This document shows positions 3 to 7,959 of a stretch of DNA of 28,988 nucleotides, in pieces (the stretch's first letter is position 1; each line of letters opens with the position of its first letter). A program made the translations under genes and the position numbers. The stretch is taken from the IMG/VR virus record IMGVR_UViG_3300042907_000762, positions 1 through 28,988 of that record; one strand, written 5' to 3'. This stretch comes from a virus. Under the pieces are notes generated by a model. That model searched no databases. It was not told the DNA's origin and saw nothing but the letters and a program-made list of their open reading frames with translations.

Positions 3-2936
3 AAGACCCAAGTGGGTGCATTGTCTGCTCTGGCTCGTTCAACTCCAAAGGATCGCCTGACAGAGATTGAGAAGATGCAGGAGATCATCGATGATCCTAG
101 GGCCAATCAGAAAGCCAAGGACAACGCTCAATCCCGCATCACTTACTTGACCACTAGGCCATCATCGGCACCTAAGGCCACTGAGGTTGAAAAACTCATT
201 GACAAGATCAATGATCCAAATACACCAGCCTCTTCTAAGGCAATCTTAAAACAGCGACTGAACAAGCTCAACTACATAGCTCCTGAAGCCAAGGCTGATC
301 GAGACAAAGACAAGCCTATGTCTCCTGCCGGCAAGATGGCAGCAGACGAAGGCCTGATTCCAGGAACCCCTGAGTTCCAAGCTCGCGTCAAGAAACTGGC
401 TGGCGAAGGCAAGGGTGTCACTCTTAGTGCTACGGAGCAGAAAGAATTGTTTGAGGCTGAAGACCAAGTCAATGCCGGCAAGACCGTCATCATAAACTTG
501 TCAAAAGCCAAAGAGTTGAACAGCAAGGCCTATTCAGGTTTTGGTGCAGGGGCTCGTCGCACAATGGCTCGCAATATTCCAGGCGTTGGCGGTTCTGAGG
601 GAGTTACTTCAACCACCGAACTTGAGAACCTGGTATTGACCAACGGCCTTGAACAATTGAAAGCAACCTTTGGTGGTAACCCAACCGAAGGCGAACGTAA
701 CATCTTGCTGCAGATTCAAGGCTCACTCAGCATGGGAGTCGAGGAACGTGCGGCTCTATGGGATCGCGCCATGAAGATGGCTGCTCGCCGAGTTAAGACT
801 GGCCAGGACAAGATGAAGAAGCTTCAATCAGGAGCCTACAGTCGTGTTCAACCAGATGAAGAAAAAGCAGCTGGTGGCCCTGTTGGTCACTATGCCGACG
901 GTGGTCCTGTTCAGATGGCTGATGGTGGCGAGATGTCCATGGCTAATATTGGCCGCGCTGTTGGTCAAGGCCTGGGTCTTGGCTTTGGCGATGAGGCAGT
1001 GGCCAGGGTTCGTGCCAAGATGGAAAATCGCCCCTACGAAGACGTGGTCAAAGAAGAGCGCGAAGCTTACCAGCGCTTTCAAGAAAAAAATCCTTTTACT
1101 GCCTTAGGTACCGAACTGGTCTCGGGTTTAATCCCGACCATTGGTATGGCCATGATCCCAGGAGCCGGCACCCCAGGAGCCGTGCTTGGTGGTACACGTA
1201 CTGCAATGGCAGCACAACGCTTGGCCTCGGCACTTCCTAAGTTTATGACGGGCACGACTGCCAAGGCAGCAGGTGCCGGAGCAACAACGGGCGCAATTGC
1301 AGGAGCCGGTTCCGAGACCGAAGGCAACCGCACAAGCGGCGCAGTCTCAGGTGGTGCAACAGGCTTGGTCCTTGGCCCGACAGTGGCTAAGAGCATTGAG
1401 ATGGGCGGCAAAGGAGTTCGTGCCGTCAAGAATGCCATCAAACCTTCTCCTGGCGCCGTGGAGCAACGAGCGACCAATAAAGTCCTTGAGGCCATGGCGC
1501 GTGATGACATGGATGCAAAAGGCTTGACAGACAAGCTAAACAAGGACATCAACCTAGGCGTCAAGTCCACCATCATGGATGCGAGTCCGTCTTTGTCAAG
1601 CCTTGGCGAAGCCGTGGTGACACGTCCAGGACCAGGTCGCAAGATTCTTGGCACCGGCTTAGAGGAGCGCCTGGAAGGTGGTCGCGAAGCTGCCGCCGCA
1701 CGTGCCCTGAAAGACATCGGCAAGAACGTAGACTACGTGGCTCAAGAAGACACCTTGATGGGCAAGCTTCGTGCCAATGCAAATACCCTCTACGATCAGG
1801 CCTATGCTCATGGTTCAGTAGATGATACACGCATCCTGAAAGTCTTGGAGGATGATACCTTCAAGAAGGCATTCAAGGAAGCTCAAGCAATTGCAGGCAA
1901 AGAAGCACGTGCAGCAGAACTTCGTGGAGAAGATGCTAGCCGCTTCAAGCTGAACGACATCTACGGCGCAGACAAAGACGGCAACCTGACTACGGTCGGC
2001 AAGATCCCTGACGTCCGCACACTTGACTACATCAAGCGCGGCATCGATGCCTTGATTGACAAGGGCTACCGTGGTGAAGGTATGTCTAAGGCAGAAGCCA
2101 ATGCGCTCAAAGATCTTAAGAAGGCTTACGTTCAGGTCATTGACGAGAACGTCCCAGAGTATGCCGCAGCGCGCGCAAAGTATGCAGGCGATATGGAGGT
2201 ATTGGATGCGCTCAGACTTGGCCGTACGGATTATCTGTCGCCTAAGATGCTGCCAGCAGAAGCCAAGAAGGTGGTCGATGCTATGTCAGACGGCGAACGT
2301 GATGCCTTGCGTGCTGGCGTAGCCCAGTCACTCTTGACTAAGGTCATGGATGCTCCTCAACAGGTCAATGCAGCTCAACGAATCATTGGTGCCCCAGCAA
2401 CCCGTAAGCGTCTGGAGGCCTTGTTCCAAGACCCCAACGAGTACAAGGTATTTGAGGCAGCCATGCAGCGCGAGTCTGAGTTGTTCCGTAATGCCCAGAA
2501 CATCATTCGCGGCAGCCGGACAGCCAACAAGCAAGAAGCCATTGCAGACTTGAAGTCAGGTTCTGGTATCTTCGACATTGCAGGTGAAGCTGTTGACGTA
2601 GCTGTAGGATCCCCAGGCTCCGTGATCGGTCGCGTCTTGAAATACTTGCAGGCACGCACGACCTTGGATGAAAAGAGCGCTGGCGAGATAGCTACGATGC
2701 TTAAGTCAGGTACGGTTCAAGAGATGCAAGACGTCTTGAATCGCTTGGAAGCTAGCAGCGCCAAGTTTATCGAGGGCCGTGAAAAGTCAGCCAGTCGCCT
2801 CAAGACCATCTCAGGCACAGTTGGAGCCGCTGCCCCAACAACACCGAAGGCTGTTGCAGAAGTAGATGCTGCGCCGGAAGACGAGACGGACGACGAGAAA
2901 ATTGAACGCATCATGCGGAGCCTCAACAATGAGTGA
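3..2936 (+). CDS. Large virion/ejection-type protein, 5'-truncated
   Basis: The reading frame is open to the window edge. The first possible start (GTG at 12) has no Shine-Dalgarno site, so the gene very probably begins upstream. About 975 residues are visible, numbered from the GTG. The order is: a charged helical region; a Gly-rich linker near residues 286-307 with the repeats HYADGG and QMADGG; a segment reading GFGDEAVARVRAKM; a long Ala/Gly-rich hydrophobic stretch (about 362-462) that could insert in a membrane; then helical segments to the end. This architecture, next to another giant gene at the end of a late module, is what internal virion or DNA-ejection proteins of podovirus-like phages look like, but no catalytic motif was found. 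The 3' end overlaps the next start by 8 bp (ATGAGTGA). A minor structural or tape-measure-like role is the alternative. Confidence 0.75.
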   Translation, partial: KTQVGALSALARSTPKDRLTEIEKMQEIIDDPRANQKAKDNAQSRITYLTTRPSSAPKATEVEKLIDKINDPNTPASSKAILKQRLNKLNYIAPEAKADRDKDKPMSPAGKMAADEGLIPGTPEFQARVKKLAGEGKGVTLSATEQKELFEAEDQVNAGKTVIINLSKAKELNSKAYSGFGAGARRTMARNIPGVGGSEGVTSTTELENLVLTNGLEQLKATFGGNPTEGERNILLQIQGSLSMGVEERAALWDRAMKMAARRVKTGQDKMKKLQSGAYSRVQPDEEKAAGGPVGHYADGGPVQMADGGEMSMANIGRAVGQGLGLGFGDEAVARVRAKMENRPYEDVVKEEREAYQRFQEKNPFTALGTELVSGLIPTIGMAMIPGAGTPGAVLGGTRTAMAAQRLASALPKFMTGTTAKAAGAGATTGAIAGAGSETEGNRTSGAVSGGATGLVLGPTVAKSIEMGGKGVRAVKNAIKPSPGAVEQRATNKVLEAMARDDMDAKGLTDKLNKDINLGVKSTIMDASPSLSSLGEAVVTRPGPGRKILGTGLEERLEGGREAAAARALKDIGKNVDYVAQEDTLMGKLRANANTLYDQAYAHGSVDDTRILKVLEDDTFKKAFKEAQAIAGKEARAAELRGEDASRFKLNDIYGADKDGNLTTVGKIPDVRTLDYIKRGIDALIDKGYRGEGMSKAEANALKDLKKAYVQVIDENVPEYAAARAKYAGDMEVLDALRLGRTDYLSPKMLPAEAKKVVDAMSDGERDALRAGVAQSLLTKVMDAPQQVNAAQRIIGAPATRKRLEALFQDPNEYKVFEAAMQRESELFRNAQNIIRGSRTANKQEAIADLKSGSGIFDIAGEAVDVAVGSPGSVIGRVLKYLQARTTLDEKSAGEIATMLKSGTVQEMQDVLNRLEASSAKFIEGREKSASRLKTISGTVGAAAPTTPKAVAEVDAAPEDETDDEKIERIMRSLNNE

Positions 2937-5900
2937 TCTTGACAAACTTGAAAAAAAGTATGAAAAAGGTAGCAAGGCCAAGGAGATTCGCAACCTAGCT
3001 GAACAGCTAAGGACGCATGATGGGCTTCCTGCTAGAAAAAATGCTGATGGTAGTTATTCCACTGAGCTAAGCATTACGGTCACCGACCCCAGGCTTAACA
3101 GGGGAAGACCCACTAACATCCCATCACTTTGGGGCGGCAAAGAAGTTGATGAAGATGCCGCCGTAAGTAACGCCCTTAAGTCAAACAAAAAATATCGATC
3201 ATTTGCTTCGATAGCAGAGGCAGAGACAGCTGCAAAAGCCAGGTCTAATGCTGGTGGCGCAAGTGCAGACGCGGAAATTCCGTTTAATCCAGACACCAAG
3301 CGAGCTTTTGAAAGCCGCAAGGAGACTCTTGAATCCATAATCAGGTCTGCCAAGCAGGCAACAGCTGGTTTTAGGAGCCAGTGGTCTGGTCTTGACGATG
3401 AGGGCAAGGTTGGTATGGGCAAGGGAACTCCTGGCATCTACTACAACACCGTGGCCCTTCCTGCTTTGGCTGGAGTTGTTGACGAAAAATACGCTCCGGA
3501 CTTTGCAGTAGAAGCCGATAAAAAGGCCGGCAAGATTAAGGAAGCAGTTCGCAAGGACATGGGCATCAATGAGCCCAGAGGTCCTCTCGAACATTTTTCC
3601 TATGCTGGTGGCGAGATGATCGGTCAAATACCAGTGCCTGGCGCCTGGATGAACAAGATAGTTGGTGGAGTCAAAAAGCTGGGAACAACTGGCAAGATTG
3701 CAGCTGCTCCTGTTGAGTACCTGACTCCAACTGTTGATCCAAGAGCCCTCAACTACGGCATTGGCACCACGTTTGGAGGAACCTTGGGAACTGTGCTTGA
3801 AGAAGAGCCAACCAAAAAAGCCTTGGGTGGCTTAATTCAGAAGTACGAGAATGGCGGCAAGGTTGGCAGGGTTAAGTCGTTCTTCTCCGCTGTTGACCAA
3901 GCTATTGATACCCTGAAGCAAAAGAAGGGAACTGGCGAGCAGATCCTTAAGCAGCTTGAGGCAACTCCTGGTGTGAAAAAAGAAGAACTTGAAGCCAGGG
4001 GCATCAAGCAAAAACTCCAAGCTTCTCCTAAGATTACTCAGGAAGAACTGCAAAAAGTTGCTAAACAGAACAAGCCGTCAATTCCAAAACGAATTAAGTT
4101 AGGCCAAGGCATTGATCCTGATTGGCAGCCCAGGCTTGAAAAACATCTTCAAGAAGCCTTTGATGAACTTAACATTCAACCAGTAGTTGATCCAAATACT
4201 GGTCAAAATTTTGGCTTTATGCATCCTGAGACGGGAGAGATCCTTGATCGCAAGGCTGTCCGTGCTTTAACTCCAGAAGAGCTAGGACTTCCGGTTAATC
4301 CTGAGACAGGCAAAATTCCACTAGACGACAAAGAATCTAGTCGACTTTATCTGAATGTGAGGCAAGCTGTAGATGAGGCTGACCAGCAGTTTAACTTGGC
4401 ACTAAATGAAACAAAGACCAAGTTTGGCAACTTTAGTAAGAGTGGCGGCAAAGACAATTACCGCGAGATATTGCTACAGAATCAGGACGAACAGGTTCCC
4501 GGTGCTCCTGCAATAAGTCAACGGATCGATGAACTACTAAAAAGTAATCCTGAGACAGAAGAGCAAGCGAAAGCAATCAATGAAGAGCTTGACTCGCTGC
4601 TTGACAAAATAAGTTCCAAGCGCCAAAATTTTACTGCAGGACACTGGAACCAACCAAACGTCATGGCGCACTATCGCGTATCAGACATGACTGGACCTAA
4701 CGGCGAGAAGGTCTTGTACGTTGACGAGATTCAATCTGACTGGCACCAAAAGGCCAGGGATTCTCGCAAGCGCGAGATCAAAAGACTGGTCAATCAGGAG
4801 AGTGACAGCATTCGTAATCAGGCGATGGAGGAGCTTACTAACGCGAATGATCCTGCTTTGAAATATACTTATGACACTTGGCACAATCATTTCTTAGATA
4901 GTGGAACAAGCCCAGAAGTAGCTGCCTCTGTTGCAAAGCAAAGAGCCGCCGACACATACTTCAAGATGCCTGAAAATGCCGCAAAATTAAAGGCCGCCCA
5001 ACTTAGGATAAAGAAGGAACGGACGGCGCAGCTTGAAAAAGAAGTTGACGAGAACTTTGGCTACAAGACGCCAGAAGACGATGAAAAGCTCTATCAGTTG
5101 AATTCTCAAATTGAACGCATTCGCAATACTGGTTTGACCACTGAAGAATTAAAAGATTACTTCCAACCAGGAAAAATTGTTCCCAGCTACGGCGGTAAAG
5201 ACAAGGTGCTGTCATTTAATTCAGGCGAAAATTCGGAAGCCTTTAAACAATCCTATGAGCGCAAGCTGGCTCAGGCTAGAAGCGCTGGAGTTGATGAAGC
5301 AGCTGCTGAGGGATGGGCCAGACGAAGAGCTCTTGCAGATGCCGGAGACGGTTGGTCTGTGACTGTTATTGAAGTTGATCCGGCAACGGGCCAGCCTCGT
5401 AGGGGAGCTGGTCAACGCACCCACAACACGTCTCCTGGAAGCCATGTAGTTGAGGAGCTTAGACAACAAACTGCTGCTCTTGAGAGCAAAGTGCCTGATG
5501 CTCCATTCAAGAAGAACTGGCACGAGCTTGCCGTTAGAGACATCTTAGACCTTGCTGCCAAGGAAGGTTACGACAAGGTAGCATTTTCTCCTGGCGTTGA
5601 ACAGGTCAAGCGATATGCTTCTGGCTTGCGTCAGGCTGTGGACGAGATCCAGTTTGGCGTGCATGAAGACGGCTCTCTTTTCATAACTGGAACCAAGGGA
5701 AGTAATCCGGTCTTTAACGGCAGGGTGATTGGAGACACGTTTATTGATGGTCAGGCCGAGGGCAAGTCGTTGTCTGAAGTGTTTGGCAGCAATATTGCAA
5801 AGCAAATTGAAGACCAGGCTCCTGATCTCCAAGAGCAGATGAAGTCGTTCAGGGGCATAGAGATGCCTGATGACAAGGATGCCGGCGATCTTCTTTGGCA

Positions 5901-7959
5901 GTACGGTGACAAGATGACCGATGACCAAAGAGCTTGGCTGCGCGACTTTTCGGAACGTTGGGAGCTTGACGTTGATGACACACCGGCCGGTGAAAGTATG
6001 GCTGGCACAATGACCGAAGAATACACCAACTGGTTAAGAAATAATCGTCTCAAGATCAGCCCTAGTGATAAACCCCCAATATCAAGGATCTCAGGCGAGA
6101 ACTTGACGATTGGTGGCGAAGGCATGAAGTCGTTCTACGACAAGCGCTTGCCTGACTACGTCAAAGAATACGGCAAGAAAGAATTTAAGGCGCCTACTAG
6201 CTACTTAGAGTTCAAGGGTACAGAAAGTCCAAAGAACTGGTCAGCTCGCGACGTTCAGGCAGAAATGGACCGAATTGATGACATGGATCGAATGGACTTG
6301 ATGGAGCGGGCGCAAGACATTACTCAAACTAGGGCAACGGAAGCTTTAGCTCGTAGAGGGATCACGCCAGATACCCCAAACATTGATTGGCAAGACGTGT
6401 TGTGGGACGAGATGGACAACCACATGGATGAAGCCCATGGTATTGCACTTCGGGAGCTAGCCGTACAAAACTTGACTGAAAATGCAGGAAAGACGCCTGG
6501 ACTGCGCACTTTCTCAATTGATGTCACTCCTGAGATGAAGGAGAAGATCAACACTCAGGGTCAAAGACTGCACGGTTTTGTGGCTCCCCAGATACTTCCG
6601 CCGTTGGCAGCAGGAGCAGCTGGTGCCGAATACGTCAGGCAATCTGTGCAGCAACCTCCTGCAGAGCCTCAGGAACCTCCTCAAGAGCAGGCGCAGGAAC
6701 CACCAGAAGAGCCCCAGGCCTTCCAAAAAGGTGGGAAGGTAGGCAGCATGAAGGATGCAGCTGAATCACTTCTAAGGGTCCTCCATGGAAGTCCTACCAA
6801 GGTCAGGTTAGACAAAGAGAAAAACCTTGACGTCACGACTGACGAAAGCTACGCGATGAAGCGGGCTCGCGACAAGATGGAGATGTTTGGCCAATCAGGT
6901 CCTCCCATGTTGAACAAGTTTGACGTGCCAGCAGCCAAGATGCTAAGGTTTCAAGAGACCTATAGCCCTGAGGACGTTGCTTTGATGCGCCGGTTCTTCA
7001 ACAGGCTGCCAGAAGGCAAGTCTATGACAGGCGAAGAGATCTACGACACAGCAGGCGGAAAAGACTTCGTGATGGAAGGCATTGCAAAGGCTGGCGGTAT
7101 GGCTGGCTATGAGCGCCCAGCAGGAGGATCTGGCGGCGTTGGCAACTGGTATCGCGTGACAGACCAAGAAGCATTGACCAGGAAAGCGCGTGGTGGCTTA
7201 ATCCAGGGATACGCAGATGGCGGAGCCAAGGGCGGTAAGGTTGACTTGGCCAGACGTGGCATCTTGGGCCTTAGCCGTTTGTTTGAAGAGCCTGCTCAAA
7301 CTGCAAACTTGCCTGCAGTCATTCCGACCGCACCTGCGGCCAAGGTCCCAGAAGCTACCTCTCCTCTTTCACAGCTTGTTCAGAAGACGGCTGAGACGCC
7401 AATGTCCCGCAGAGACGTGTTGAAGAAAGCCGGAAACGTGGCAATTTCGCAGGCGGCAAAGGGAGTTGTGCCTATGGCGCTTAAAGAAGCCGTTCTCGAG
7501 GCCATTCCAATTAAAGTATCTCCTGTGGGCAATGTTGAAAATGCCGTCAAGAATCTCTACATCAACCAAATGTTTGATAATTTTTACGATGACGCTGCAG
7601 GACACGGTGGAACACTGTTTGAGGCTTATGAGTCATTCCTCCCGTTTATTTCTCAAAGCTTGTCTAAGTCTGAGAAAAAGGCAATTGAAAAAGCGCGTGA
7701 TTTGTTTTACGAATACGGTGAGGACGAGATCCCAAGCAGGATCTATGACAGGATCTCTAAGGGAGTAGACATTCTTCAAGAAAAGATCTCAGAAAAGGGT
7801 AACGATATTCCAATCAAGGATGTGCTCTCACCAGACATGTACAAGATGTCATTGGAAGATATGAAGGACTATGGCGTTGAGATCACGCCTGACATGGTTG
7901 AGCAGCTTAGAAAGACTGAATGGGCCCCTGATGTCTTCCACGAATTTGATACCCCTTAA
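2929..7959 (+). CDS. Giant polyvalent multidomain phage protein (1676 aa)
   Basis: The start is ATG 2929, which overlaps the upstream stop; an in-frame ATG at 2866 lies deep inside the previous gene. Visible blocks: an N-terminal DPRLNRGRPTNIPSLW segment (residues ~50-70); a Gly-rich linker GGLIQKYENGG (~299); GTGEQILKQLEATPGVKKEE (~332), which resembles a motif common in large phage polyvalent proteins; VLYVDEIQSDWH (~597); WHELAVRDILDLAAKEGYDKV (~865) with SPGVEQVKRY; an ITP/VTPEMKEKI-like end of domain near 1195; a Pro/Gln/Glu-rich spacer (~1240-1265); an ART-like start LLRVLHGSPTKVR (~1280); a second linker GGLIQGYADGG (~1423); and an internal twin-arginine-like MSRRDVLKKAG (1492). The family resemblance to large polyvalent proteins delivered with phage DNA is from memory. 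The enzymatic assignments are inference. Confidence 0.8.
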   Translation: MSDLDKLEKKYEKGSKAKEIRNLAEQLRTHDGLPARKNADGSYSTELSITVTDPRLNRGRPTNIPSLWGGKEVDEDAAVSNALKSNKKYRSFASIAEAETAAKARSNAGGASADAEIPFNPDTKRAFESRKETLESIIRSAKQATAGFRSQWSGLDDEGKVGMGKGTPGIYYNTVALPALAGVVDEKYAPDFAVEADKKAGKIKEAVRKDMGINEPRGPLEHFSYAGGEMIGQIPVPGAWMNKIVGGVKKLGTTGKIAAAPVEYLTPTVDPRALNYGIGTTFGGTLGTVLEEEPTKKALGGLIQKYENGGKVGRVKSFFSAVDQAIDTLKQKKGTGEQILKQLEATPGVKKEELEARGIKQKLQASPKITQEELQKVAKQNKPSIPKRIKLGQGIDPDWQPRLEKHLQEAFDELNIQPVVDPNTGQNFGFMHPETGEILDRKAVRALTPEELGLPVNPETGKIPLDDKESSRLYLNVRQAVDEADQQFNLALNETKTKFGNFSKSGGKDNYREILLQNQDEQVPGAPAISQRIDELLKSNPETEEQAKAINEELDSLLDKISSKRQNFTAGHWNQPNVMAHYRVSDMTGPNGEKVLYVDEIQSDWHQKARDSRKREIKRLVNQESDSIRNQAMEELTNANDPALKYTYDTWHNHFLDSGTSPEVAASVAKQRAADTYFKMPENAAKLKAAQLRIKKERTAQLEKEVDENFGYKTPEDDEKLYQLNSQIERIRNTGLTTEELKDYFQPGKIVPSYGGKDKVLSFNSGENSEAFKQSYERKLAQARSAGVDEAAAEGWARRRALADAGDGWSVTVIEVDPATGQPRRGAGQRTHNTSPGSHVVEELRQQTAALESKVPDAPFKKNWHELAVRDILDLAAKEGYDKVAFSPGVEQVKRYASGLRQAVDEIQFGVHEDGSLFITGTKGSNPVFNGRVIGDTFIDGQAEGKSLSEVFGSNIAKQIEDQAPDLQEQMKSFRGIEMPDDKDAGDLLWQYGDKMTDDQRAWLRDFSERWELDVDDTPAGESMAGTMTEEYTNWLRNNRLKISPSDKPPISRISGENLTIGGEGMKSFYDKRLPDYVKEYGKKEFKAPTSYLEFKGTESPKNWSARDVQAEMDRIDDMDRMDLMERAQDITQTRATEALARRGITPDTPNIDWQDVLWDEMDNHMDEAHGIALRELAVQNLTENAGKTPGLRTFSIDVTPEMKEKINTQGQRLHGFVAPQILPPLAAGAAGAEYVRQSVQQPPAEPQEPPQEQAQEPPEEPQAFQKGGKVGSMKDAAESLLRVLHGSPTKVRLDKEKNLDVTTDESYAMKRARDKMEMFGQSGPPMLNKFDVPAAKMLRFQETYSPEDVALMRRFFNRLPEGKSMTGEEIYDTAGGKDFVMEGIAKAGGMAGYERPAGGSGGVGNWYRVTDQEALTRKARGGLIQGYADGGAKGGKVDLARRGILGLSRLFEEPAQTANLPAVIPTAPAAKVPEATSPLSQLVQKTAETPMSRRDVLKKAGNVAISQAAKGVVPMALKEAVLEAIPIKVSPVGNVENAVKNLYINQMFDNFYDDAAGHGGTLFEAYESFLPFISQSLSKSEKKAIEKARDLFYEYGEDEIPSRIYDRISKGVDILQEKISEKGNDIPIKDVLSPDMYKMSLEDMKDYGVEITPDMVEQLRKTEWAPDVFHEFDTP

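Follow-up and report, generated by a model that had tools for sequence, protein, structure and literature searches.

The stretch of DNA analyzed here (the window) is an IMG/VR virus record of 28,988 bases that opens with two overlapping giant genes, P0001 and P0002. The P0002 coding sequence starts at the ATG at 2929 (MSDLDKLEKKYE), an assignment that is supported by the proteins of two relatives, L003 and L216, which begin with the same MSDL peptide. The relatives with L handles are all metagenomic assemblies. The features of the two genes are:

3–2936, + strand: giant gene P0001, 5′ end open at the contig end, overlapping P0002
3–866, + strand: P0001 N-terminal block, homologous to RHph_I1_23 gene 14 and to the C-terminal part of Pam5 gp12
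867–941, + strand: P0001 linker region AAGGPVGHYADGGPVQMADGGEM, with two motifs; extra blocks lie here in L003, L004 and L005
942–2936, + strand: P0001 C-terminal block, homologous to RHph_I1_23 gene 15; phrog_5880
2929 (ATG)–7959, + strand: giant gene P0002, overlapping P0001
2929–3816, + strand: P0002 N-terminal block
3817–3870, + strand: P0002 linker 1, KALGGLIQKYENGGKVGR, duplicated around an inserted ART-PolyVal domain in L002
3853–6180, + strand: P0002 central module, a GNAT-like predicted fold with large insertions
6721–6744, + strand: P0002 linker 2, FQKGGKVG, duplicated around an inserted block in L216
6784–7185, + strand: P0002 HGSP block, the putative "ART-like" block of an earlier note
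7186–7242, + strand: P0002 linker 3, ARGGLIQGYADGGAKGGKV, the protein end in L003–L006 and L128
7243–7959, + strand: P0002 C-terminal block, present in L002, a gene of its own in L216 and absent from the L003–L006 proteins

In the cultured Rhizobium phage RHph_I1_23, the counterparts of P0001 are two adjacent genes within the virion gene cluster: gene 14 matches residues 113–284 of P0001 (E = 8e-13) and gene 15 matches residues 315–864 (E = 6e-27). The P0001 linker, at residues 289–313, coincides with the boundary between these genes. The Pam5 homologue, gp12, is encoded between the head completion and tail fibre genes; this is the usual position of podovirus ejection-protein genes. The window itself encodes terminase and head–tail adaptor/portal-type genes, and therefore has the portal–terminase packaging expected where polyvalent proteins are encoded. 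The virion gene region of a related phage, G002, also holds a β-ketoacyl synthase-like protein and a GroES-like Cpn10 (L219:1529–2710 and L220:1648–2085, both on the − strand).

The earlier note, made from the sequence alone, had named three glycine-rich linkers and an HGSPTKVR segment, and all four are present: HYADGG near nucleotide 888 in P0001, GGLIQKYENGG at 3826–3858 and GGLIQGYADGG at 7192–7224 in P0002, and HGSPTKVR starting near 6784 in P0002. A fourth linker, FQKGGKVG in P0002, had been overlooked, and a second motif, MADGG, adjoins HYADGG in P0001. The motif takes the form [FYM]xxGGx[VI], with a long form GGLIQx[FY]xxGG; relative to the first glycine, the position-specific signal consists of Met, Phe or Tyr at −3, Ala or Lys at −2 and Val or Ile at +3. 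A strict version, [FYM][AKDEQNRST]xGG, occurs five times in the two giant proteins compared with 0.95 expected by shuffling (P = 0.0034), and is found zero times in the other genes of the window (5764 aa).

Homology to relatives now backs the claim that the linkers separate recognizable blocks, which had been made by inspection. The closest relative, L002, has two copies of linker 1 with an ART-PolyVal domain between them, and L216 has one copy of linker 2 on each side of an inserted block. L128 carries a different block at the same place, also between GG motifs, and a relative of the L128 block is found in another protein, in L075, again flanked by GG motifs. The P0002 homologue terminates at linker 3 (KARGGL...) in L003–L006 and likewise in L128, whereas in L216 a gene boundary falls inside linker 3 and the C-terminal block follows as a separate gene with 41% identity. 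In L003, L004 and L005, the P0001 homologues are enlarged by further blocks set between linkers of the YADGG type. In a set of 141 non-redundant long proteins, breakpoints of homology are moderately enriched around the motif: they fall within 15 aa of it 2.4-fold more often than expected for random positions, compared with 1.3-fold for other GG pairs. We conclude with high confidence that the GG linkers are block boundaries and that P0001 and P0002 are modular at these points.

The C-terminal block of P0002 contains a twin-arginine-like segment, PMSRRDVLKKAG (window 7399–7434), which is kept as PMTRRNVLKQAG in L216 and is followed by no clear hydrophobic stretch. A widespread Tat signal was considered for the string MSRRDVLKKAG and rejected: giant proteins are not enriched in motifs of this type (3 versus 1.85 by shuffling), and this particular one occurs only in close relatives.

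The central module of P0002 (∼775 residues) is found in many environmental phages, with 224 candidate stretches confirmed; 45 of 50 aligned members match phrog_7348. Its predicted structure (pLDDT 83.9, pTM 0.71) resembles the GNAT fold: nearly all matches listed by VIA are GNAT-fold proteins (best Z 9.2 over 104 aa, 3.5 Å), and Foldseek matches are weak (E of 0.17 or worse). Among the 50 members QSDWHQ and PFKKNWHE are invariant and GGEGMKxFYDK is conserved, but the canonical acetyl-CoA loop, [RQ]xxGx[GA], is not among the invariant columns. We therefore describe the module as GNAT-like in predicted fold rather than as a GNAT enzyme. In many loci (for example L013, L015 and L019), giant proteins carry a conserved ALKYEG(D/E)TMGHCVGGYCPDV segment, and L013 and L017 match the Pfam PcfJ family.

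The suggestion that the block starting with HGSPTKVR is ADP-ribosyltransferase-like gains no statistical backing, and the assignment stays putative. The block has no Pfam match at E ≤ 10, ART-PolyVal (PF18760) included, and neither a PHROG match nor a credible match among PDB sequences. Alignment with ART cassettes by hhalign gives a probability of 0.6%, from a very shallow profile (Neff 1.5), and an AlphaFold model built from seven sequences (pLDDT 46) is unusable for fold. The histidine in VLHGSP is invariant, and the position where the tyrosine of an H–Y–D triad would be expected reads LDVTT by eye. Nor did anything credible emerge when PDB sequences were searched with profiles of A3 and A1. 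The block inserted in L002, on the other hand, does match PF18760 (E = 1.3e-7, 32.9 bits against a cut-off of 31.2), a match that a genome-level search with a loose first look did not recover. IMG/VR searches with the putative ART block and the L002 insert returned close relatives only. The strict linker motif lies upstream of seven of nine ART domains and downstream of seven of nine, which is not independent evidence because it partly reflects shared descent. Blocks in L216 and L186 that resemble ARTs by eye were rejected as such, since Pfam gives nothing for them.

The motif extends well beyond these relatives. At least 119 IMG/VR stretches contain GGLIQx[YF]xxGG, compared with 10 for GGQILx[YF]xxGG, a permuted, equally degenerate and composition-matched pattern; the motif is short and glycine-rich, and matches from such a broad scan include chance ones or ones specific to tape measure proteins. 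Long-form matches are mainly in long giant proteins, many of them tape-measure-like with a TDTVPAMLTPGEFV segment after the motif, and a query of the motif plus this segment matches annotated tape measure proteins of cultured phages. In the collection of papers searched, neither the motif strings nor cleavage of tape measures or polyproteins led to any account of this peptide. It is apparently a new junction or tail peptide within a known class of proteins. Its recurrence in internal proteins of many phages suggests a shared tag or joint, more than a flexible spacer.

This bears on what the linkers are for. The earlier note's picture of a modular polyvalent architecture with linkers at the block joints stands. 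Of the two roles it offered for them, flexible joints or cleavage sites, the first is too weak for a conserved peptide. A simple hinge for unfolding and refolding through the portal, with the exact sequence irrelevant, would account for glycine-rich segments placed between blocks. However, the two linker copies in L002 differ by five synonymous and no non-synonymous changes over 18 codons, linker 1 ranks at the 95th percentile for conservation within the protein and linker 2 at the 79th, and the excess of the long form over its permuted counterpart depends on residue order; we regard a plain hinge as improbable. The linkers might instead be retained as DNA, as homology arms driving cassette exchange. 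The L002 copies do share a 74-nt repeat that is 85% identical, and GG repeats within a contig share codons above the prediction from codon usage (pooled, 0.71 versus 0.41). Because all changes in the L002 linker core are synonymous, selection acts on the peptide, and some repeats in L013 and L049 encode similar peptides while sharing codons at about the expected rate or less. Homology arms are thus a still more remote explanation than a hinge.

The distribution of the motif at protein ends is informative for the remaining readings. A GG lies within the last 30 aa in 54 of 95 motif-bearing proteins versus 25.6% of random windows, and in genome G002 the motif occurs 13 times per 3676 aa in the P0001 and P0002 homologues, a tail-like protein and a small K/G-rich protein, compared with 3 times per 13,363 aa elsewhere; both enrichments are partly circular because some of the proteins compared were chosen for carrying the motif. 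A GG..NPDTM-type cassette is C-terminal in 21 cases and internal in 46. Since related peptides also form the C-terminal tails of single proteins, the internal copies are best read as tails retained at gene fusion or cassette insertion. This evidence favors a recognized peptide, whether for docking or for processing, over a plain hinge. Processing would mean cleavage at or past GG by a protease of the host, of the phage or of the protein itself, either within the virion or once injected, with the blocks released as effectors. Peptide-level conservation fits such sites; relatives encode blocks as separate genes split at the linkers, so that separate polypeptides are workable; and metallopeptidase processing of polyvalent proteins has been proposed (PMC5512222). 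The C-terminal copies argue mildly against cleavage, because the tails have conserved residues past GG and a cut there would free almost nothing, and the small proteins that hold 5–10 motifs in 200–270 aa count against it too. Six sister records showed no Peptidase_S78, and these plus the window no ClpP-type protease, although the records may be fragments and host proteases could serve. Overall we consider protease sites unlikely, if less so than a hinge.

The small motif-packed proteins are K/G/M-rich, lie in the same gene clusters (L066:16394–17200 and L219:14836–15432) and have no match in a PHROG search. Separately, in L012, L014, L033, L049, L066 and others, the gene immediately upstream of that for the central module encodes a giant protein whose C-terminal tail is nearly invariant, GG(A/E)I(T/N/R)(A/G)DDLI(L/I)EERPL.

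Docking is our leading guess for the function of the linkers, a tentative one that we hold at somewhat less than even chance. P0001 and P0002 would be built from exchangeable blocks, with the internal linkers as tails left by gene fusion or cassette insertion, and each block would keep its tail because a partner inside the virion recognizes it, for docking or cargo packaging. Encapsulin cargo-loading peptides, which are short, conserved and often C-terminal, load cargo into HK97-fold shells by a comparable logic; the likeness is one of logic only, and we claim none in sequence. The blocks may refold separately after passage through the portal channel, and the cassettes, among them ART in relatives and the GNAT-like module, would serve as early effectors once inside the host.

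The closest known proteins are the phage polyvalent proteins (Iyer et al. 2017, PMC5512222), which are giant, multidomain and encoded by phages and prophages, and are predicted to be packaged and injected; ART and GNAT domains have already been described as neighbors among them, in many cases within a single polypeptide. In the window, the module of GNAT-like predicted fold and the further blocks may correspond to this pattern, and relatives carry ART-PolyVal and, in L067, LPD23. The window differs in that its ART block is only putative and that the canonical loop is missing from its GNAT-like module, and the main text of PMC5512222 contains neither "linker" nor "glycine". Podovirus ejection proteins (T7 gp15/gp16, P22; PMC8954989) are likewise modular and mosaic and share the gene position of the Pam5 and RHph_I1_23 homologues, and a giant protein of the relative L190 combines an SLT transglycosylase domain with an ART; the window proteins, however, are much larger and carry effector-type cassettes. 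Tape measure proteins with FAxGG...TDTVPAMLTPGEFV have the GGLIQ[KR]FAxGG peptide in common with the window and are also inside the virion, but they are different proteins, in which the motif precedes the GEFV segment. The two giant proteins are probably injected into bacteria with the viral DNA. We give roughly an even chance to the fuller reading, in which P0001 and P0002 are podovirus-type ejection proteins of the polyvalent class, with a conserved tail or junction peptide linking their cassettes and docking as its leading, still tentative role.

A broader and more doubtful extension is that the motif serves tailed phages in general as a cargo tag, a short peptide code placed at the C-terminus or between domains, by which internal and ejected proteins would be loaded into virions. 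Such a tag would cover polyvalent effectors, tape measures and ejection proteins alike, and phages would be able to add new effectors by simply adding a tagged cassette. More generally, the conserved linkers would allow module boundaries and cargo to be located by a simple sequence rule in the very large, unannotated proteins that environmental phages encode. They would also offer a testable way into how phages select the proteins that they deliver with their DNA.
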